DNA of 64,000 nucleotides from Sediminicoccus sp. KRV36. Its GTDB lineage: Bacteria > Pseudomonadota > Alphaproteobacteria > Acetobacterales > Acetobacteraceae. The stretch spans positions 3,555,001 to 3,619,000 of the forward strand of contig NZ_CP085081.1 of the NCBI RefSeq assembly GCF_023243115.1, in the 5' to 3' direction. Of this stretch, positions 3,451 to 48,942 are shown piece after piece. Below the pieces are notes generated by a model. The model was not told the origin of the DNA, did not search any database, and worked only from the letters and a program-made list of their open reading frames with translations. Made by a program: the position numbers and the translations under genes. Each line of letters starts with the position of its first letter. The first letter of the stretch is position 1.

Positions 3451-4803
3451 ATGACCGGCCGCCGCGCCGCGCGCACGCCGCGCCTGCCGCTCTTCGAGGC
3501 CGGCCCGCCCGTGGCCCCGCCCCTGCCCCCCGCCGCGCCCGAGGCGCCACGCGGCACGCGCCGCTTCCTGATGCTGCATGGCGCGGGCCTCGCCTGCCCC
3601 CGCGCCGCCATCTGGGCGCTGCGCTTCTCGCCCCTGGTCGGCATCTGGCGCGAGGAGGGGCTGCTGATCGAAACCACCGGCCTGCCCGAACCCGAGCCCG
3701 CATTGCTCGCCCGCGTGCTCGCCGGTTTCGGGAAGGCCGGGCATCCGGCACGCGGGCTGATCGGCGCGGCCCCGGCCGCCCTGGCGGCGCTGCTGCGCGC
3801 GGGCCTGCCCTCCCAGGTGCTGGATGCCGAGCCGGATCTGGCGCGCCTGCCGGTCAGCGCGCTCGCCCTGCCCGAGGCGATGATCGCGGCCCTGCATCGC
3901 CTCGGCCTGCGCGAGGTGGCGGCGCTGGAGGCGCAGCCGCGTGGCCCGCTGGCGCGGCGCTTCGGCCCCGCCATCGCCCAGGAGTTGGCCGCCCTGCGCG
4001 GCGCCATCGCCCCCTTCACCCCCATCCGGCCGCCGCCGCAGCACGTCGCCGCCCGGGATTTTCTCTCACCCCTGGTCACCGCGCCGGGGCTGGAGCGCAT
4101 GATCGGCGCGCTGATCGCCACACTGTGCGAAGGGCTGCTGGCGGCGGGCGAAGGCGTGCGCGTCCTGCGCCTCACCGCCTTTCGCGGCGATGGCTCCTGG
4201 CAGGAGCTGCGCCAGGGCCTCGGCCAGGCCAGCCGCGAGCCCGCCCATCTGCAGCGCCTGATGGCCCGCCGCGTGGAGGAGTTGCGGCCCGAACTGGGTT
4301 TCGAGCGCCTGATCCTCGCCGCCGAAGTGACGGAGGCCCTCACCCCCCGCCAGCCCGGCCTGCCCGGCGAGGACACCGCGCCCGAGGCCTTGGCCACGCT
4401 GCTGGATCGGCTGGGGCAACGCGTCCAGCTCTGGCGCCTCGCCCCGCATGCCTCGCATTGGCCCGAGCGCGCCATCCGCCGGGTCAGCGCCTTCACGGCC
4501 CCCGCCGTCTTCACCCCGGCACCCCGTCCGCTGCGCCTGCTGCGCCGGCCGCTCGCGCTGGAGGCCGTGGCCCTGCTGCCCGATGCACCGCCCTCCCTGC
4601 TCAGGCTGGGCCGCCAGGCGCATCGCATCACCCGCGCCATGGGGCCGGAACGGCTGGAGCCCGAATGGTGGCAGGGCCACACCGCCCGCCCGCGCGACTA
4701 TTACGCCGTGCAGACCGAAAGCGGCGCGCGCTGGTGGGTCTGCCGCAGCGGAGCGCCAGGGGCGCCGGATAATCGCTGGTATCTGCATGGATATATGGTG
4801 TGA
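3451..4803 (+). CDS. imuB: ImuB, Y-family polymerase-like accessory protein (N-terminal part apparently missing)
   Basis: ImuB, the catalytically inactive Y-family-like protein that links DnaE2 to the sliding clamp. The C-terminal two thirds match the family: FSPLVGIWREEGLLIETTG, the little-finger region, and the tail LLRRPLALEAVALLPDAPP ... GPERLEPEWW ... ARPRDYYAVQTESGARWWV. The first about 85-100 residues of a usual ImuB palm appear absent: a proline-rich 38-residue leader runs into RRFLMLH and then jumps to the segment that normally precedes FSPLV. Length is 450 residues against roughly 480-530 expected. It overlaps dnaE2 by 4 bases (GTGA), indicating translational coupling, and follows a palindromic element. 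Confidence 0.8.
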   Translation: MTGRRAARTPRLPLFEAGPPVAPPLPPAAPEAPRGTRRFLMLHGAGLACPRAAIWALRFSPLVGIWREEGLLIETTGLPEPEPALLARVLAGFGKAGHPARGLIGAAPAALAALLRAGLPSQVLDAEPDLARLPVSALALPEAMIAALHRLGLREVAALEAQPRGPLARRFGPAIAQELAALRGAIAPFTPIRPPPQHVAARDFLSPLVTAPGLERMIGALIATLCEGLLAAGEGVRVLRLTAFRGDGSWQELRQGLGQASREPAHLQRLMARRVEELRPELGFERLILAAEVTEALTPRQPGLPGEDTAPEALATLLDRLGQRVQLWRLAPHASHWPERAIRRVSAFTAPAVFTPAPRPLRLLRRPLALEAVALLPDAPPSLLRLGRQAHRITRAMGPERLEPEWWQGHTARPRDYYAVQTESGARWWVCRSGAPGAPDNRWYLHGYMV

Positions 4804-7800
4804 TCTTCGGCGAACCCGCCGCCCTCTCCAACTTCTCCTTCCTGGAGGGCGCCTCCCACGCGCGGGAGCTGGTGGAGACGGCCCAAAGCCTGGGCCATTC
4901 GCTGATCGGCGTGGCCGACCGTCAGGGCTTCGCCGGCAGCGTGCAGGCCATGGTGGCGGCCGAGCAGGCAGGGATGCGCTATCTGCTGGGCGTGCGGCTC
5001 ACCCTGCTGGACGGCGCCGAATACTTGGCCTGGCCGAGCGACCGCGCCGCCTATGGGCGCCTCACCGCCATGCTCTCGGCCGCGCGCATGGAGGCGCCCA
5101 AGGGCGAATGCCCGCTGACGCGCGAGGCGCTGATCCAGGCCGCACTAGGCCAGGCACTGGCGCTCATCGCCCCCCGCCACCCCGATGCCAATTTCGCCAC
5201 GCGGCTGCGGCGCGATACGGCCGAATTTGGCCGGGTGCTCGCCATGCCGCTAATGGTCGCGGCGAGCCATCGCGCCACCGGCGATGATCGCGCCCGGCTG
5301 GATACCCTCGCCGCCATGGGCGCGCGCCTGATCGCCGCGGGCGGCGCGCGCTACCACGCGGCCCATCGAAGGCGCCTCGCCGATGTGCTCAGCGCCATCC
5401 GCCTGGGCCGCCCCGTGGCGGAACTCGGCCTGGACGCCGAACCCAATGGCGAGGCTTGCCTCAAGCCCGAGGCCGAACTGCGCCGCCTGTTCCAGGGGCA
5501 TGCGGCGGCGGTGGATCGCGTGGCGGAGCTGGCGGATGTCGCGCGCTTCTCCCTGCGCGAGCTCGCCTATGAATACCCGGACGAAATTCTCGATCCCGGC
5601 CGCACGCCGCAGGAAACCCTGGAAGCCCGGGTTGCGGCCGCGACGCGCGAAACCTGGCCCGAGGGCGTGCCCCCCAAGGTCCAGGCGCAGCTTGCGCATG
5701 AAATCGCGCTCATCGCCAAGCTCAACTACGCGCCCTATTTCCTGACCGTGCATGAGATCGTGCGCTATGCGCGCTCCATCAACATCCTCTGCCAGGGGCG
5801 CGGCTCGGCGGCCAATTCGGCGGTGTGCTACGTGCTCGGCATCACCGCCGTGCCGCCCGACAAGCACGACCTGCTGTTCGAGCGCTTCATCAGCGAAGCG
5901 CGCGACGAACCGCCCGATATCGACGTGGATTTCGAGCACGAGCGGCGCGAGGAGGTGATCCAGCACATCTACCAGCGCTATGGCCGGCATCGCGCCGCCA
6001 TCGCCGCCACCGTGATCCGCTTCCGCGAACGCAGCGCCATCCGCGAGGTGGGCAAGGCGCTGGGCCTGGATGAGGCGGTAACGGCGCCACTCGCCAAGGC
6101 CGTCTGGGGCGCGGGCGATGCGACCTGGGAGGAGATCGCCGCCGAACACGGCCTCGATGCCGAGGACCCGCGCCTGAAGCTCGCCTGCGAACTGGCCGAT
6201 GAGATCCAGGATTTCCCGCGTCATTTGGCCACCCATGTCGGTGGCTTCGTCATCACCCGCGGGCCGCTGACCGAGTTATGCGTCGTGACCCGCGCGGCGA
6301 TGGTGGATCGCCACACCATCGAATGGGACAAGGACGACATCGAGGCGCTGCGCATGCTGAAGGTGGATGTGCTGGGCCTGGGCATGCTGAGCTGCATCCG
6401 CCGTGGCCTGGCGCTCATCGGCAAATCCGCGCTGACCGACATCCCGCAGGATGACCCCGCCACCTATGAGATGCTGAGCCGGGCGGACAGCCTGGGTGTA
6501 TTTCAGGTGGAAAGCCGCGCGCAGATGAACATGCTGCCGCGCCTGCGCCCGCGCCAATTCTACGATCTGGTGATCGAGGTCGCGATCGTGCGCCCGGGCC
6601 CCATCCAGGGCGACATGGTCCACCCCTATCTGCGCCGCCGCAATGGCGAGGAACCAGCCGAGGTGCCGCGCGGGCTGGAGGGTGTGCTGGGCAAGACGCT
6701 CGGCGTGCCGCTGTTCCAGGAGCAGGCGATGAAGATCGCCATTGTTGGCGCCGGCTTCTCGGCCACGCGGGCGGACCAGCTGCGCCGCGCGATGGCGACC
6801 TTCAAGCGCAACGGGCAGCTGCCGCAATTCCGCGCCGAATTCCTCGAAGGCATGGCGCGCAATGGCTACGACCCCGGCTTCGCCGAGCGCTGCTTCAAGC
6901 AGCTGGAGGGCTTCGGTACCTATGGCTTTCCGGAGAGCCATGCGGCGAGCTTCGCGCAGCTGGTCTACATCTCGGCCTGGCTGAAATGCCACCATCCGGC
7001 GGCCTTCGCGGCGGCATTGCTGAACAGTCAGCCCATGGGTTTCTACGCCCCGGCGCAGATCATCCGCGATGCGCGCGAGCATGGCGTGCGCGTGCTGCCG
7101 ATTGATGTGACGGTGAGCGATTGGGATTGCGGCCTGGAGTATGCTGTCCCGCCCGATTCAGACCTCTGGGCTGCGCCCTCCGATCATCGGGCGCATGCCG
7201 GCCCACCCGATTCAGACCTCCGGGCTGCGCCCTCCGATCATCGGGCGCATGCCGGCCCGCCCGATTCAGATCTCCGGGCTGCGCCCTCCGATCATCGGGC
7301 GGGGGGCGCCCTGCGCCTCGGCCTGTGCCAGGTGACGGGCCTGGGCGAGGCCGTGGCGCAGCGCATCGCGGCCGCGCGCCCCTTCGCCGATTTCCGCGAC
7401 CTGGTGCGCCGCGCAGGCCTGGATCGCGGCGCGATGGAGCGCCTGGCCGAAGCGGATGCGCTGCGGGGCCTCGGCCTCGACCGCCGCGCGGCACTGTGGG
7501 AAGCGGCGGCGGTCGAGCACGCCATGGAACTCGCCGCCCCGATCACGGAAGCCGCGCCGCAACTCCCGCTGGCCACGGCGGGTGAGCGCGTGGTGCTGGA
7601 TTATGCCGGCACCGGCCTCACCCTCGGCCCGCATCCACTGGCGCTGCTGCGCGGCGAGCTCGCGCGGCGGGGTGCGGTCAGCACGCAGGAATACGCCCGC
7701 GCCCGGCAAGGCAAATGGCTGCGTGTGGCCGGCCTCGTGCTCGTGCGGCAGCGGCCAGGGAGTGCCAAGGGCGTCATGTTCTTCACCATCGAGGATGAGC

Positions 7801-8108
7801 ACGGCACGGCCAACCTCGTTCTCTTCCCCGATATCTCGAAGCGCTTCCGGCGTGAGGTGGTGGCCGCCCGGCTGCTCATCGCCGAGGGCCGGCTGGAGCG
7901 CACCGAGGCGCATGTGCCCATCCTTCACCTGCTGGTCCGCAAGCTGGAGGATCACTCGGCCCTGCTGCACGGGCTGCATGCGCTGGATGGCGACACCTGG
8001 GCCAAATCCATCGCCCATGCGGATGAGGTGCTGCGGCCTAACCTCTCGCCCGATCCGCGGGTGAAGCGCCAGGAAGCGCTGCGCCAGCCGAGCCGGGATT
8101 TCCATTGA
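4800..8108 (+). CDS. dnaE2: Error-prone DNA polymerase DnaE2
   Basis: C-family DNA polymerase for SOS mutagenesis and lesion bypass; 1102 residues. It starts with GTG inside the imuB stop. It has an N-terminal PHP domain (LSNFSFLEGASHARELV), the palm catalytic motif PPDIDVDFEHERRE with a further acidic motif EWDKDD, the helix-hairpin-helix region (ALRLGLCQVTGLGEAVAQ) and a C-terminal OB domain (WLRVAGLVLVRQRPGSAKG). The RRAMATFKRNG and FGTYGFPESHAASFA motifs are typical. Oddity: between GLEY and ALRLGL lie three near-identical 18-residue repeats (unit PPDSDLRAAPSDHRAHAG), encoded by a palindromic element at 7152-7301. The frame stays open, so the protein is probably functional with an extra loop. 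Confidence 0.95.
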   Translation: MIFGEPAALSNFSFLEGASHARELVETAQSLGHSLIGVADRQGFAGSVQAMVAAEQAGMRYLLGVRLTLLDGAEYLAWPSDRAAYGRLTAMLSAARMEAPKGECPLTREALIQAALGQALALIAPRHPDANFATRLRRDTAEFGRVLAMPLMVAASHRATGDDRARLDTLAAMGARLIAAGGARYHAAHRRRLADVLSAIRLGRPVAELGLDAEPNGEACLKPEAELRRLFQGHAAAVDRVAELADVARFSLRELAYEYPDEILDPGRTPQETLEARVAAATRETWPEGVPPKVQAQLAHEIALIAKLNYAPYFLTVHEIVRYARSINILCQGRGSAANSAVCYVLGITAVPPDKHDLLFERFISEARDEPPDIDVDFEHERREEVIQHIYQRYGRHRAAIAATVIRFRERSAIREVGKALGLDEAVTAPLAKAVWGAGDATWEEIAAEHGLDAEDPRLKLACELADEIQDFPRHLATHVGGFVITRGPLTELCVVTRAAMVDRHTIEWDKDDIEALRMLKVDVLGLGMLSCIRRGLALIGKSALTDIPQDDPATYEMLSRADSLGVFQVESRAQMNMLPRLRPRQFYDLVIEVAIVRPGPIQGDMVHPYLRRRNGEEPAEVPRGLEGVLGKTLGVPLFQEQAMKIAIVGAGFSATRADQLRRAMATFKRNGQLPQFRAEFLEGMARNGYDPGFAERCFKQLEGFGTYGFPESHAASFAQLVYISAWLKCHHPAAFAAALLNSQPMGFYAPAQIIRDAREHGVRVLPIDVTVSDWDCGLEYAVPPDSDLWAAPSDHRAHAGPPDSDLRAAPSDHRAHAGPPDSDLRAAPSDHRAGGALRLGLCQVTGLGEAVAQRIAAARPFADFRDLVRRAGLDRGAMERLAEADALRGLGLDRRAALWEAAAVEHAMELAAPITEAAPQLPLATAGERVVLDYAGTGLTLGPHPLALLRGELARRGAVSTQEYARARQGKWLRVAGLVLVRQRPGSAKGVMFFTIEDEHGTANLVLFPDISKRFRREVVAARLLIAEGRLERTEAHVPILHLLVRKLEDHSALLHGLHALDGDTWAKSIAHADEVLRPNLSPDPRVKRQEALRQPSRDFH
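7152..7301. repeat. 54-bp palindromic repeat, three tandem copies inside dnaE2
   Basis: Three copies start at 7152, 7206 and 7260 (period exactly 54 bp, the third truncated). Each contains a 40-base core that opens CCCGATTCAGACCT and closes ATCATCGGG, with a small inner stem GGGC-TGC-GCCC. The ends CCCGAT and ATCGGG are complementary. The same family (CCGATTCAGACCT ... CATCGG, also 40 bases) occurs twice between livF and livH. Because 54 is a multiple of three the dnaE2 frame is kept. Confidence 0.9.
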
Positions 8109-19014: not shown

Positions 19015-19037
19015 GGGCTATTCCCTCCCCCAGCCGG

Positions 19038-19141
19038 CCGATTCAGACCTTCGCTCCTGCGTCGCTTCGCTCATCGGACGGGGCCCTGCCGTCCGGCCGA
19101 TTCAGACCTTCGCTCCTGCGTCGCTTCGCTCATCGGACGGG
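19038..19141. repeat. two copies of the CCGATTCAGACCT palindromic element between livF and livH
   Basis: Copies start at 19038 and 19097, each with a 40-base core opening CCGATTCAGACCT and closing CTCATCGG; the two are identical over the core and separated by GC-rich spacer. The second abuts the livF stop. They are of the same family as the element in dnaE2 (shared first 13 bases, central TGCG and end CATCGG). Confidence 0.9.
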
Positions 19142-42172: not shown

Positions 42173-43132
42173 TTATTCTCGCTCTATCCCGGCCATGCGG
42201 ACGACCTCGGACCAACGGGCGCGTTCCGCAGTCAGCATGCGGTCCATGTCCTCGGGGGTGCCGCCGACGGGCTCGGCGCCCCAGCTCAGCAAGCGCTCGC
42301 GCACCTCGGGGATGCGGATGATCTGGTCGATCTCGCTGGCAAGGCGGCGGCGGATGTCCATCGGCGTGCCGGCCGGGGCCGCATAGCCCAGCCAGGCATT
42401 GGCCTCGTAGCCGGCAATCCCGGCCTCCTGCAGCGTTGGCACATCCGGCAGCAGCGAAAACCGCCGCGTGCCACCCACCGCCAGCGGCCGCAGCGTGCCT
42501 GCCCGGAAATCCTCCAGGAAGGACGGCGCCTGCTCGATGACGAGCTGGATGCGCCCCGCCAGCAGATCGGTGCGGGCCGGGGCACCGCCGCGATACTGCA
42601 CCATCTCCATCTCGACATTGCCGGCGAGCGCCCGGAACATCTCGACCGTGAGGCGCGAAGCCATGCCCGATGTGGCGAAGTTGATGGAACCCGGCCGCGC
42701 GCGTGCCAGCGCCAGAAACTCCGCGACCGTCGTGACGCCCAGCGAGGCCGGCACCACCATCACATAGGGGATCAGCGCGACCATGGAGACACCGACCAGG
42801 TCGCGCGCCGGATCATAGGGCAGGGTCTTGTAGACGAAGGGATTCACCGCCATCGGCCCCGGACTGCCGGCGAGCAGCGTGTAGCCATCGGGGGCGGCCT
42901 TCGCCACGGCATCCGCGCCCAATATGCCAAAGGCGCCGGCACGATTCTCGACCGCCACCTGCTGGCCCAGCGGGCGGGCCAGGTTCTCGGCGATGAGGCG
43001 GGCGATGAGGTCGGTGGCGCCGCCCGGCGCGAAAGGGACAACGACGCGCAGCGGGCGCGCAGGCCAGCCCTGCGCCCGCGCGAGCGAGGGCGCGGCCAGT
43101 GCGGCGAGGGTGGCGCGGCGAGAGAGGTTCAT
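42173..43132 (-). CDS. Bug/TctC family periplasmic binding protein
   Basis: A 319-residue receptor with Tat-like signal MNLSRRATLAALAAPSLARA. Motifs are LRVVVPFAPGGATDLIARLI, VAVENRAGAFGILGADAV, APDGYTLLAGS and QYRGGAPARTDLLAG. Its start overlaps the stop of the upstream flavin monooxygenase by 4 bases (ATGA), so the pair is co-translated and probably handles one sulfur- or nitrogen-containing substrate. Confidence 0.9.
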   Translation of the reverse strand: MNLSRRATLAALAAPSLARAQGWPARPLRVVVPFAPGGATDLIARLIAENLARPLGQQVAVENRAGAFGILGADAVAKAAPDGYTLLAGSPGPMAVNPFVYKTLPYDPARDLVGVSMVALIPYVMVVPASLGVTTVAEFLALARARPGSINFATSGMASRLTVEMFRALAGNVEMEMVQYRGGAPARTDLLAGRIQLVIEQAPSFLEDFRAGTLRPLAVGGTRRFSLLPDVPTLQEAGIAGYEANAWLGYAAPAGTPMDIRRRLASEIDQIIRIPEVRERLLSWGAEPVGGTPEDMDRMLTAERARWSEVVRMAGIERE

Positions 43133-44475
43133 TCGGCGGCCCTCTGCATGAAGAAGCGGTTCTCCGGCCGCGCGAGGCCGAGATTATCGCGCAGGGTCCG
43201 GCCCTCATACGCGGTCCGGAACAGGCCACGGCGCTGCAATTCCGGCACCACCAGGCGAATGAAGCGCTCAAGCCCCGTCGGCACCACCGGGGCCGCGATC
43301 ATGAAGCCGTCGCAGGCTTTCTCCAGGTACCAGCGCTCCATCAGGTCGGCCACCTGCATGGCGCTGCCCTTGAAGAAATTGCCGGCCATTTGCGGCAGGA
43401 TGCTGCGATAGGTTTCGCGCACCGTCATCTTCTGCTCCAGGGCTTTCGCCACGATCGCCTTGCCGATGCCCGTCGGGCCGATGTGCTCGAAATCCAGCGC
43501 CGGGAAAGGGCCATCCAGCGGATAGGCGGACATCTTCACGCCGACCATCTTCGACAGGTAGTCGAGCCCCACAGCGGGCGGCACCAGGTCATCCAGTTCC
43601 TGCGCCAGATGATCCGCCTCCTCGGCGGTTTCGGCGGCGATGATGGTCACACCGCTCAGGATCTTCAGGCTCTCCGGGGTCCGGCCATGTTTCGGCAGCC
43701 GGCCCTTGAGGTCGGCATAGAGTTTCTGCGCGCGCTCGATCGTGCCCTCGATGGCGAAGACGCAATCGGCCGTGGCGGCGGAAAGTTCGCGGCCCGTCTC
43801 CGACTGCCCGGCCGAGAAGATCACCGGATGGCCCTGCGGCGGGCGCGGCGCATTCAGCGGCCCGGCCACCTGGAAATGCTTTCCGCGATGGTTCAGCGCA
43901 TGCACCTTGCTCGGGTCGAGGTAGCGGCCGCTGGACTTGTCCTGCGGGAAGGCATCATCCGCCCAGGAATCCCAGAGCCCCTTCACGATGCCCGCGAACT
44001 CGGCGGCGCGCTCGTAGCGATCATCGCGCGGGACGTGTTCCTCATGGGAGAAGTTCAGCGCATCGCCAGGGTTGGAGGTGGTGACGAGGTTCCAGCCCGC
44101 CCGCCCCTTGCTGATATGATCCAGCGAGGCAAAGCGGCGCGCGACCGAAAACGGCTCGTCATAGGTGGTGGTGGTGGTGGCGACGAGGCCGATATGCTCG
44201 GTCACCATCGCCAGCGCCGAAAGCAGCGTCACCGGCTCGAACACACCCGGCCGGTCAGACGGGCTGGTGGCGGCGAACAGGTCCGGCTTGTCGAGGTTCC
44301 GGACGCCATTGCCGTCGGCGAGGAAGAGCAGGTCGAACTTCCCGCCCTCGGCGATGCGCGCGAGGCGCACGGCATTCTCCAGGTTGCTGGCGGGCTTGTC
44401 CCAGGCGGTGGGGTGGCGCCATTCGCCGACATGGGAGCCCTGGGCATTGGCATTGGCGGCGAGGATCATGGGCAT
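43129..44475 (-). CDS. LLM class flavin-dependent monooxygenase (NtaA/SnaA/DszA-type)
   Basis: A 448-residue bacterial luciferase-like TIM-barrel monooxygenase of the two-component, FMNH2-using group that includes nitrilotriacetate, EDTA, dibenzothiophene sulfone and dimethylsulfide enzymes. Features are KFDLLFLADGNGV, FEPVTLLSALAMVTEHIGL, TTTTTYDEPFSVARRFASLD, GRAGWNLVTTSNPGDALNF and PVIFSAGQSETGRELSA. It needs a separate flavin reductase, not found here. It is coupled to a Bug gene. Four 23-bp tandem repeats lie upstream of it. Confidence 0.9.
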   Translation of the reverse strand: MPMILAANANAQGSHVGEWRHPTAWDKPASNLENAVRLARIAEGGKFDLLFLADGNGVRNLDKPDLFAATSPSDRPGVFEPVTLLSALAMVTEHIGLVATTTTTYDEPFSVARRFASLDHISKGRAGWNLVTTSNPGDALNFSHEEHVPRDDRYERAAEFAGIVKGLWDSWADDAFPQDKSSGRYLDPSKVHALNHRGKHFQVAGPLNAPRPPQGHPVIFSAGQSETGRELSAATADCVFAIEGTIERAQKLYADLKGRLPKHGRTPESLKILSGVTIIAAETAEEADHLAQELDDLVPPAVGLDYLSKMVGVKMSAYPLDGPFPALDFEHIGPTGIGKAIVAKALEQKMTVRETYRSILPQMAGNFFKGSAMQVADLMERWYLEKACDGFMIAAPVVPTGLERFIRLVVPELQRRGLFRTAYEGRTLRDNLGLARPENRFFMQRAAE

Positions 44476-44553
44476 GCGCGCACTCCTTTGCGCGCAGCTT
44501 CGCGCCGGAGGCTTGCCGCGCGCAAGGGTGGCTTGGGCCGGGCCGCGTCAATG

Positions 44554-44645
44554 CTGGCCGACGCTCCGCGTCAACGCTGGCCGACGCTCCGCGTCAACGC
44601 TGGCCGACGCTCCGCGTCAACGCTGGCCGACGCTCCGCGTCAATG
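44554..44645. repeat. 23-bp tandem repeat, four copies
   Basis: Units begin at 44554, 44577, 44600 and 44623 and read CTGGCCGACGCTCCGCGTCA plus three bases; the first three are almost identical and a partial unit precedes them. Each contains the dyad GACGC ... GCGTC. The array fills the spacer upstream of the flavin monooxygenase and its last unit supplies the stop codon (44640-44642) of the next gene on the same strand. Confidence 0.9.
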
Positions 44646-44981
44646 CGGGGCGACGCGCCGCCGGACCATCCGCGTCTGCCCGGTGACGCCGCAAGCCTTT
44701 GCGCGCTCCAGCTGTGCGGCCGCTTGCGCCGCGGAGGGCAGCGGGTCCGAAATGACGACGTAGAGTCCCTGCACCAGGCCGTCATAGAAATTGCTCTCCT
44801 CGGCCGCGACCTGGATGCCGCAGGCCAAGAGCCGTCGCATCGTCGCAAGATCCGCGCGGTCACGCGTCGAGCTGTAGAGGTTGTGTGGCTGCGTGCCCCC
44901 CGTCTGGGCCCCGGTTTGGCAAGGAGCCACTGCCAACAGAAGACACAGCGAGAAGGATATCTTGAGGCGCGGCACAGGCAT
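44640..44981 (-). CDS. small secreted protein, SPOR-like C-terminal domain
   Basis: A 113-residue protein with signal peptide MPVPRLKISFSLCLLLAVAP (cleavage near TGAQT). The mature part STRDRADLATMRRLLACGIQ ... GLVQGLYVVISDPLPSAAQA ... ERAKACGVTGQTRMVRRR has the beta-alpha spacing of a short SPOR-type (peptidoglycan-binding) domain and two Cys that could pair. The family call is tentative. The stop codon falls inside the 23-bp repeat array, so the C-terminus may have been trimmed or extended by the repeats. It is divergent from the OB-domain gene. Confidence 0.65.
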   Translation of the reverse strand: MPVPRLKISFSLCLLLAVAPCQTGAQTGGTQPHNLYSSTRDRADLATMRRLLACGIQVAAEESNFYDGLVQGLYVVISDPLPSAAQAAAQLERAKACGVTGQTRMVRRRVAPH

Positions 44982-47593: not shown

Positions 47594-48883
47594 ATGACGC
47601 CGTCCGCTGCCCATGCCGCGATCCGCTTCGGCCTTGGGGCAAGGCCGGATGCGCCACTCCCGGACGACCCGAAGCCGTGGCTTGCCGCGCAGATCCGCCC
47701 GCTGGCCGAAGCGCCCGGGCCGAGCCTGGCCGAAATCCAGGCGATCCTCACCGACCGCAACCGGGAGCGCGCGGGGGAACTTCGCCGCGACCTGACCCGC
47801 GCCGAATCCCTGGCCTGGGCGCAGCGGGCGCTGATGACCGATGCGCCCTTCGCTGAACGCTGGGCGGATTTCTGGTTCAACCACCTCACCATCAGCCGCC
47901 GCGGTCCGGCCGCCGCCGCCTATGCCGGGAATTATCACCGGCTGGCCATCCGCCCGCATGTGTTCGGCCGCTTCGATGCCATGCTGCTGGCGGCGTACCG
48001 GCACCCGGCCATGCTGGCCTATCTGGACCAGGCGAGTTCAGTGGGGCCGGGCAGCCGGGGCGGCCAGCGCCGCAATGCAGGGTTGAACGAGAATCTGGCC
48101 CGCGAATGCCTGGAGCTGCACACCATCACGCCGGCCGGCGGCTATACCCAGGCCGATGTGGCGGCGCTGGCGCGCATCCTCACCGGCTGGTCCATCGCGC
48201 GCGGGGCCGAGCAGAATGAGCCGGCCGGCTTCATGTTCCGCGAGCCGGCGCATGAACCCGGCCCCAAGACCCTGCTGGGCCGCCAGTATCCGGAAGGGCT
48301 GGAGGCCGGCGAACAGGCCCTGCTGTTCCTGGCCAACCAGCCCGCCACGCATCGCGCCCTGGCGCGCAAGCTCGCGCGGCATTTCATCAGCGATGATCCG
48401 CCAGCCGCCGCCGTGGCCCGGCTCGAGACGGCATTCCGGACCAGCCAGGGTGACCTCGGCATCGTCGCGCGGGCCGTGATCGCCGAGCCGGCGGCCTGGC
48501 AGCCCCTCACCAAGATCAAATCCGGCCAGGATTATACGCTGAGCGTCATGCGCGCCCTTGGCATGCCGGAGCGCGCGGCCCCGGCCGTACTGGGGACGAT
48601 GACGCGGCTGGGGCAGGCGCTCTGGGGCGCCCCCGCGCCGATCGGCTGGGGCGATGACGCTGCGACATGGGCGGTGCCCGAGCAACTCATGCGCCGGGTG
48701 GATTGGGCGAATGAGTTGGCCGGCCGCGCCGATGCCGGCCAGCGCCTGCCCCTGGCCGAGCTGGCGGAAAACCTGCTGGGCCCGCTGGCCCGTGCCGAAA
48801 CCGTGGCCGCTGCCCGCCGCGCCGGCTCCGCGCAGGAGGCGGTGCTCCTGATTCTCGCCAGCCCCGAGGCGCATCGCCGATGA
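47594..48883 (+). CDS. DUF1800 domain protein
   Basis: A 429-residue member of the DUF1800 family, found next to DUF1501 genes in many bacteria. Features are HAAIRFGLGARPD at the N-terminus, FAERWADFWFNHLTIS, LNENLARECLELHTI and VAALARILTGWSI, then KLARHFISDDPP. The function is unknown; a role in an extracytoplasmic process is usually assumed because its partner is Tat-exported. The start is ATG 47594 or 47585 just before. It overlaps the next gene by 4 bases at the first of three possible starts. Confidence 0.88.
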   Translation: MTPSAAHAAIRFGLGARPDAPLPDDPKPWLAAQIRPLAEAPGPSLAEIQAILTDRNRERAGELRRDLTRAESLAWAQRALMTDAPFAERWADFWFNHLTISRRGPAAAAYAGNYHRLAIRPHVFGRFDAMLLAAYRHPAMLAYLDQASSVGPGSRGGQRRNAGLNENLARECLELHTITPAGGYTQADVAALARILTGWSIARGAEQNEPAGFMFREPAHEPGPKTLLGRQYPEGLEAGEQALLFLANQPATHRALARKLARHFISDDPPAAAVARLETAFRTSQGDLGIVARAVIAEPAAWQPLTKIKSGQDYTLSVMRALGMPERAAPAVLGTMTRLGQALWGAPAPIGWGDDAATWAVPEQLMRRVDWANELAGRADAGQRLPLAELAENLLGPLARAETVAAARRAGSAQEAVLLILASPEAHRR

Positions 48884-48942
48884 ACTTACCCCGAGGCGCA
48901 CCGCCGATGAGCTTAGCCCGAGGTGCCGCACCGATGATCCTG
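48862..48942. repeat. 27-bp tandem repeat, three copies, spanning the DUF1501 gene start
   Basis: Units 48862-48888, 48889-48915 and 48916-48942 read CCCCGAGGCGCATCGCCGAT plus seven bases; units 1 and 2 differ at two or three positions, unit 3 is more diverged. Each contains one in-frame ATG (48880, 48907, 48934). Confidence 0.9.

Follow-up and report, generated by a model that had tools for sequence, protein, structure and literature searches.

Palindromic elements inside and next to genes

REPs of the GTAG and CGTC classes occur inside open reading frames, many of them in genes of DNA synthesis and repair, and lie close to stop codons; DnaE2 is listed among the REP-tagged proteins (PMC3733652, available text). 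The recB gene is tagged at about the same site in two Xanthomonas species, and other genes of this category are tagged at different sites (PMC3733652, available text). CGTC REPs, which lack a dedicated transposase according to the same text, are defined there by an unpaired terminal CGTC, TGTC or CCTC, a stem of 8-9 bp that begins with AT, a loop of 4-5 and a tail that is mostly CCA. In Escherichia coli, REPs that lie no more than 15 nt from a stop codon are treated as putative translational regulators (PMC12306157, available text). Palindromes inside proteins, DnaE2 included, are already known from PMC3733652, so that Rickettsia, named as the precedent when the present locus was first described from its sequence, is a valid but not the only one: coding palindromes are indeed known there, and the REP-tagged DnaE2 in the available text of PMC3733652 places the kind beyond Rickettsia as well.

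The locus lies in a window of 64,000 nucleotides (the whole stretch of DNA analysed) from Sediminicoccus sp. KRV36, whose genome (G000) is a single contig of 4.91 Mb. The reading put forward here, to which we give a probability of about 0.82, is that a hairpin element of ~45 bp, REP-like and non-autonomous, has dispersed among Sediminicoccus and closely related bacteria, settling mostly next to stop codons, and that in dnaE2 it forms a tolerated in-frame array. A literature search on palindromes in proteins, REPs near stops, DnaE2 with palindromes, Sediminicoccus and Acetobacteraceae N-terminal extensions found no account of the Sediminicoccus element, for most papers in title and opening of the abstract, and only PMC3733652, in its available text, pairs DnaE2 with inserted palindromes. 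The element family, its stop-adjacent in-frame arrays and the sharing of one DnaE2 loop by different palindromes are new.

The dnaE2 array and the family of its unit

The original prediction of a palindrome-bearing 54-bp unit, present three times in tandem and in frame within dnaE2, is borne out by TRF, a repeat search, a core search and the open reading frame. The features are as follows.

4800..8108, plus strand: dnaE2, error-prone DNA polymerase, 1102 aa, GTG start
7140..7193, plus strand: array unit 1, in frame in dnaE2, core 7150-7193 (TRF, repeat search, core search, covariance model)
7194..7247, plus strand: array unit 2, in frame in dnaE2, core 7204-7247 (the same four methods)
7248..7301, plus strand: array unit 3, in frame in dnaE2, core 7258-7301 (the same four methods)
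7140..7301, plus strand: whole dnaE2 insert, residues 781-834, missing in the closest relatives, pLDDT <50 at 783-834

The product is an error-prone DNA polymerase by NCBIfam NF004225 (1285 bits against a cut-off of 939), and its matches to the PHP, alpha NTPase, finger, HHH_6 and OB domains make it a DnaE2; its best-scoring homologue, a Sediminicoccus-named protein (P0001), reaches 82% over the searched part. TRF resolves 3.0 tandem copies of 54 bp with 94% matches (7141-7301), and the repeat search of the window finds 58-nt copies starting at 7136, 7190 and 7244, with spacings of 54 and 54. When up to 3 mismatches are allowed, a 44-base version of the core matches at three places, all in the array, each with one mismatch (mean of 0.00 occurrences in 100 shuffled controls). 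The reading frame stays open across the array, the plus strand of 7140-7301 having no stop triplet in any frame, and the period of 54 bp (18 codons) keeps the frame through all three units, as had been proposed. Each unit encodes PPDSDLRAAPSDHRAHAG, with W for R in copy 1. The predicted size of about 55 residues was near the mark, alignment to empty relatives giving 54 (residues 781-834). The claimed 40-base palindromic core proves to be an imperfect palindrome, with a conserved 3-base bulge (TCA) on one side.

Upstream of dnaE2, the stop codon of a 450-aa open reading frame (3451-4803) without an NCBIfam match overlaps the GTG start; this frame presumably occupies the position expected of imuB. 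Two further tandem repeats were seen in the window: a 27-bp repeat of 2.8 copies at 48862-48937, its period a multiple of three, and a 23-bp repeat of 5.2 copies (94% matches) at 44543-44661, its period not a multiple of three, just outside a minus-strand open reading frame at 43129-44475.

An alignment of 31 copies from this genome, with 3-4 flanking bases, shows the core as an imperfect palindrome with a stem CCGAT/ATCGG followed by the TCA bulge. For the one structure named, 93.1% of cells are paired over the 31 copies, against 81.0% in shuffles (reached by 0 of 500), and 44 cells are changed on both sides, against 14.6 +- 2.7 expected (none of 500 shuffles as high); both comparisons are biased towards the structure, since the copies were chosen by a sequence motif and the structure was drawn from the same copies. 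Two of the five covariation measures are weaker: 7 pairs show change in both partners (5.3 in shuffles, with 46 of 500 reaching 7), and additional pair types number 14 (11.5 in shuffles, 18 of 500). Shifting the partner columns by 1 to 3 lowers the paired cells to at most 53%, and the pair 14-40 is unpaired in 11 of the 31 copies. Single-strand DNA folding gives z-scores of -2.16 (plus) and -3.09 (minus) for copy 1 and only -0.96 (plus) for copy 2; the folding of one core being weak, it is covariation across the 31 copies that carries the argument for a hairpin. No terminal unpaired GTAG occurs at either end of the alignment. Nor is there a conserved unpaired CGTC end: beyond CCGAT/ATCGG the bases differ from copy to copy and are matched by the opposite arm, with standard pairs in 29 of 31 copies at columns 2-49 and likewise at 3-48.

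A covariance model of the element finds at least 95 places in this genome (E <= 0.01), which group into 48 arrays holding between 1 and 5 copies. All 24 multi-copy arrays run head to tail, and among the matches listed none has an opposite-strand neighbour within 110 bp. With stricter filters and among the matches listed, the family was detected in 20 of 21 same-genus genomes (none in G013) and, by covariance model R1, in none of 24 genomes from other families of the class; six of 15 genomes from other genera of the same family have matches (at least 100, 18, 8, 3, 1 and 1). An Rfam scan of the window at gathering score returned tRNA only and nothing for the repeat. The element is dispersed, its stem is kept by compensatory changes, and orthologous sites differ in its presence and copy number. 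The prediction that a dispersed palindromic family had become protein-coding is supported, on translation from sequence, by these matches and by empty dnaE2 sites in close relatives: a dispersed palindrome is open in frame within genes whose counterparts in relatives are without it.

A mobiliser of the RAYT/Y1 type in this genome was rejected, as no Y1 transposase (PF01797, Y1_Tnp) is encoded there; the domain is also absent from 20 of 21 same-genus genomes. The one same-genus genome with Y1 transposase matches is G016 (L278-L280), which has at least 4 element matches.

Gene junctions and reading through the arrays

The original prediction placed the same core family in a junction it named livF/livH, and two members were found there, both flanked by genes that the frame caller puts on the minus strand.

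19034..19080, plus strand: family member, first of two, gene junction, E 6.7e-9
19093..19139, plus strand: family member, second of two, gene junction, E 6.7e-9

Among the seven relatives examined, this junction holds no copy in six and one copy in one. Throughout the genome, with gene frames assigned by a simple codon-usage caller, 45 of the 48 arrays are flanked by or embedded in co-directional coding sequence, the other three being mixed. Only three of the 45 are internal to a gene: those in dnaE2, in a gene for an HrpB helicase and in a hydantoinase-like gene, whose best NCBIfam row, caprolactamase subunit alpha, is below cut-off. At apparently the same site of the latter gene, one in-frame copy was seen in G003 (L188) and two in G000 (L045). 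The array starts 2-6 nt past the stop codon of the preceding gene in 29 of 48 cases; among 2944 random places in the window, 10 do so and 1729 (59%) fall within a gene by the same caller. By inspection, the stops often lie within ATGA, GTGA or TGATG overlaps.

Placement is similar elsewhere: of 25 loci from other genomes, which are the best-scoring per genome or record and not a random sample (L192, too short, L213, at the place of L192, L212 and the second match of L197 were left out), 20 are junctions, one is internal and four are mixed. Eighteen of these 20 junction arrays begin 2-10 nt, and 11 begin 2-6 nt, past a stop. Six junctions that hold 3 (ureG), 3 (queG), 5 (gmk), 3, 2 and 1 copies in G000 were compared with seven relatives; 26 of 30 orthologous sites are empty and four hold 1, 4, 1 and 1 copies, a proportion that overstates emptiness because split or longer matches yielded no locus and their sites were left out (the had sites of G005 and G008, the gmk site of G014 and the same3 sites of G014 and G010, for example), and these point to further occupied sites.

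At many arrays the downstream frame passes through the units as an N-terminal extension, which reads MSDVA-[RPIQTSGQEPSSHRGDAA] repeated in UreG and VTAPDDRRAKPGGLSRP.. in QueG. The genes behind the extensions are above the NCBIfam cut-off for UreG, QueG and Gmk; Mfd and AddA are named from truncated stretches and fall below it. In the opposite orientation, the sequence can be read as short open reading frames of the type M..ADSRLRA..ALQRSEA, with a stop that overlaps the next start and GGAGG a few bases upstream. Of the 24 multi-copy arrays, 19 have a usual period divisible by three (p=5.5e-6 for an expectation of one third), as have 10 of 12 arrays at the loci of relatives. A comparison of the periods of translated and untranslated arrays was dropped as partly circular, because a non-triplet period by itself closes frames. 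Judging from the frames, the arrays are probably translated. Three-copy in-frame arrays also lie at the N-termini of two proteins that by eye are Maf-like (L215, G035) and RluB-type pseudouridine synthase-like (L214, G008). At L041:1131-1297, three 59-bp units are each a small open reading frame of their own with an ATGTGA stop/start overlap, and the array ends at the GTG of the next gene.

The DnaE2 loop in relatives and in other bacteria

The insertion point is not simply between the fingers and HhH regions, as first stated; it lies inside the HHH_6 match (residues 762-897), at the tip of a predicted beta-hairpin. In an AlphaFold2 model (mean pLDDT 77.0, 50 sequences), predicted strands 778-780 and 837-839 flank the insert, and residues 783-834 have pLDDT <50. 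By alignment only, the solved bacterial polymerase III alpha chains 5fku_A and 3e0d_A have a gap at the loop relative to the profile. In all likelihood the insert therefore forms a disordered loop that caps a beta-hairpin inside the HHH_6 match. Its likeliest function is none, that of a tolerated spacer.

Comparison of dnaE2 between species, suggested with the original description, shows 0, 1 or 3 units, with close relatives empty. The site is empty in three genomes that are 93-95% identical over residues 1-780, and alignments of relatives to this DnaE2 are interrupted at residues 780 and 834-836. Between LE and LRLGLR the loop measures 3 residues in seven same-genus genomes (G003, G004, G005, G009, G010, G014, G015), and G011 and G016 (63% identity) are likewise short-looped. 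In G008 a single in-frame unit occupies the same position, its 54-nt insert showing no folding signal on its own (z -0.6; reverse -0.9). G020 and four others have loops that differ in sequence, 41 and 16 residues long. On a tree of 57 DnaE2 rows, made by a quick method with the loop left out, the own-family state at the loop changes at least four times, with gains and losses not distinguishable and with P0001, P0008, P0059 and P0062 assigned to the family by peptide alone. Over the tree columns, the DnaE2 of three genomes of the same genus group is equal to Roseococcus- and Rubritepida-named proteins.

A wider survey covered 109 DnaE2 rows that could be parsed: the query plus 108 from the 120 best database proteins, a sample of close kin. 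The loop measures 3-16 residues in 78 of them and at least 20 in 31, and the peptide motif places the own family in the four database proteins just named. Other loops read TPTLP.., PSPACGGGLGWG.. and PLRGHPPPLRGRG.., which we take to resemble well-known repeats. The loop inserts of a Roseomonas genomospecies 6 record (L094) and of Falsiroseomonas oryziterrae (L080) have 72 and 60 matches in their own genomes. The insert itself is part of both counts, and many palindromic places score once on each strand; by hand, ~40 other places remain in each genome. In an alphaproteobacterial MAG (L129), the loop stretch fits by eye the description of CGTC REPs in the available text of PMC3733652. Palindromes of other kinds thus occupy the loop in other genera, and two have proved to be dispersed in their own genomes. 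Folding on the plus strand alone gives z <= -2 in 10 of 32 loop inserts of at least 36 nt, against 1 of 64 flanking dnaE2 control windows; the remaining 22 of the 32 long-loop loci lie above -2 on that strand, so that no palindrome signal common to all long loops of DnaE2 was found and many of the extensions may not be palindromes. The 16-residue loops such as EIPGSDQPPGHRRRHA (L059-L062 type), which have no DNA palindrome signal by folding, may be decayed single copies of the unit. Among 113 homologues of at least 1000 aa and the query, insertions of at least 15 residues number 33 at the loop, 9 at other internal sites and 9 at the N-terminus. In keeping with the original prediction, rows outside the family's range lack the repeated loop among the DnaE2 examined, and some carry other palindromes.

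How the array arose and why it persists can be read in several ways. Hardly any credence attaches to the view that a stretch of normal dnaE2 coding sequence was duplicated locally without any mobile element: the copies do stand in tandem and, over 58 nt, share 90% identity with the reference copy, but the unit recurs at many other places (best 92% over 48 bp, besides the covariance-model matches, which also answer the objection that the core might have no further genomic copies) and is missing at the dnaE2 site of close relatives. It is very improbable that the loop is itself selected, with the number of 18-residue units adjusting HhH contacts with DNA or partners and so tuning mutagenesis. 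The position inside the HHH_6 match, the copy numbers of 0, 1 and 3 and the repeated changes of state on the tree speak for it; against it stand the 3-residue loops of the closest relatives and the predicted disorder of the insert, and tolerance at the loop is suggested by the sequences of very different length and composition that occupy it elsewhere. The earlier suggestion that copy number tunes the polymerase finds no support, as it varies between species but nothing links it to function.

For the N-terminal arrays, it is distinctly unlikely that they are untranslated, the proteins beginning past the array and the open frame being a by-product of G+C-rich sequence. The available text of PMC3733652 argues so for many REPs near N-termini, and since in-frame GTG codons, candidate real starts, lie inside or past several arrays, a later start is possible in some extended genes. 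However, after the first codon of ureG no in-frame ATG, GTG or TTG follows until 78 nt past the array; the distance is 128 nt for QueG and the HAD protein, and in AddA the 150 nt scanned contain none. Moreover, the ATG upstream of the ureG array is kept in relatives' ureG sequences, and the excess of triplet periods points the same way. That stop-adjacency reflects selection alone, random insertion being followed by the survival of harmless copies, is a serious possibility with odds somewhat short of even: junctions are the least harmful places in a genome so dense that 59% of random places fall inside a gene, and the dnaE2 copies sit in a predicted permissive loop, yet tolerated random insertion should scatter more evenly across intergenic space than a 2-6 nt window that holds 29 of 48 arrays. 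More doubtful is a targeting version, in which the element would seek stop/start overlaps of co-transcribed genes and, by bringing along a Shine-Dalgarno-like end (GGAGG shortly upstream of the following start) or an in-frame coding strand, insert between coupled genes without breaking either; the arrays would then supply new protein termini while keeping the frame, and an internal loop in the case of dnaE2, their copy number evolving quickly.

On the preferred reading of a dispersed hairpin element that dnaE2 tolerates, an enzyme acting in trans would move the element, tandem copies would come from local duplication in unit steps, and in translated arrays mainly three-base steps would survive. 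The dnaE2 copies would have persisted because the site is an exposed beta-hairpin tip that tolerates disordered inserts, and such permissiveness would explain the other palindromes at the same loop in other genera. The family offers a countable case of dispersed palindromes becoming protein sequence outside Rickettsia, with empty sites, copy-number differences and a frame signal. It also turns the published remark on REP-tagged DnaE2 into a testable pattern of one beta-hairpin loop, different palindromes and different genera, and raises the question of selfish DNA at gene junctions as a source of new N-termini and leader peptides.

Among known systems, the family resembles the GTAG and CGTC REPs (available text of PMC3733652) in being made of short dispersed palindromes near gene ends, some in open reading frames, with DnaE2 tagged. 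Unlike these, it has neither GTAG nor a conserved unpaired CGTC end, carries a conserved 3-base bulge, forms head-to-tail arrays and shares one DnaE2 loop with different repeat families. With the Rickettsia palindromic elements (RPE) it has in common in-frame palindromes in proteins, N-termini included (as given in the available text of PMC3733652); by their description, it differs in its tandem arrays of mostly triplet period, its strong bias to positions just after stops and its Acetobacteraceae host. Hairpins, clusters and gene-end location are likewise features of RAYT-mobilised REPs and BIMEs, whereas this genome has no Y1 transposase and its multi-copy arrays run head to tail.
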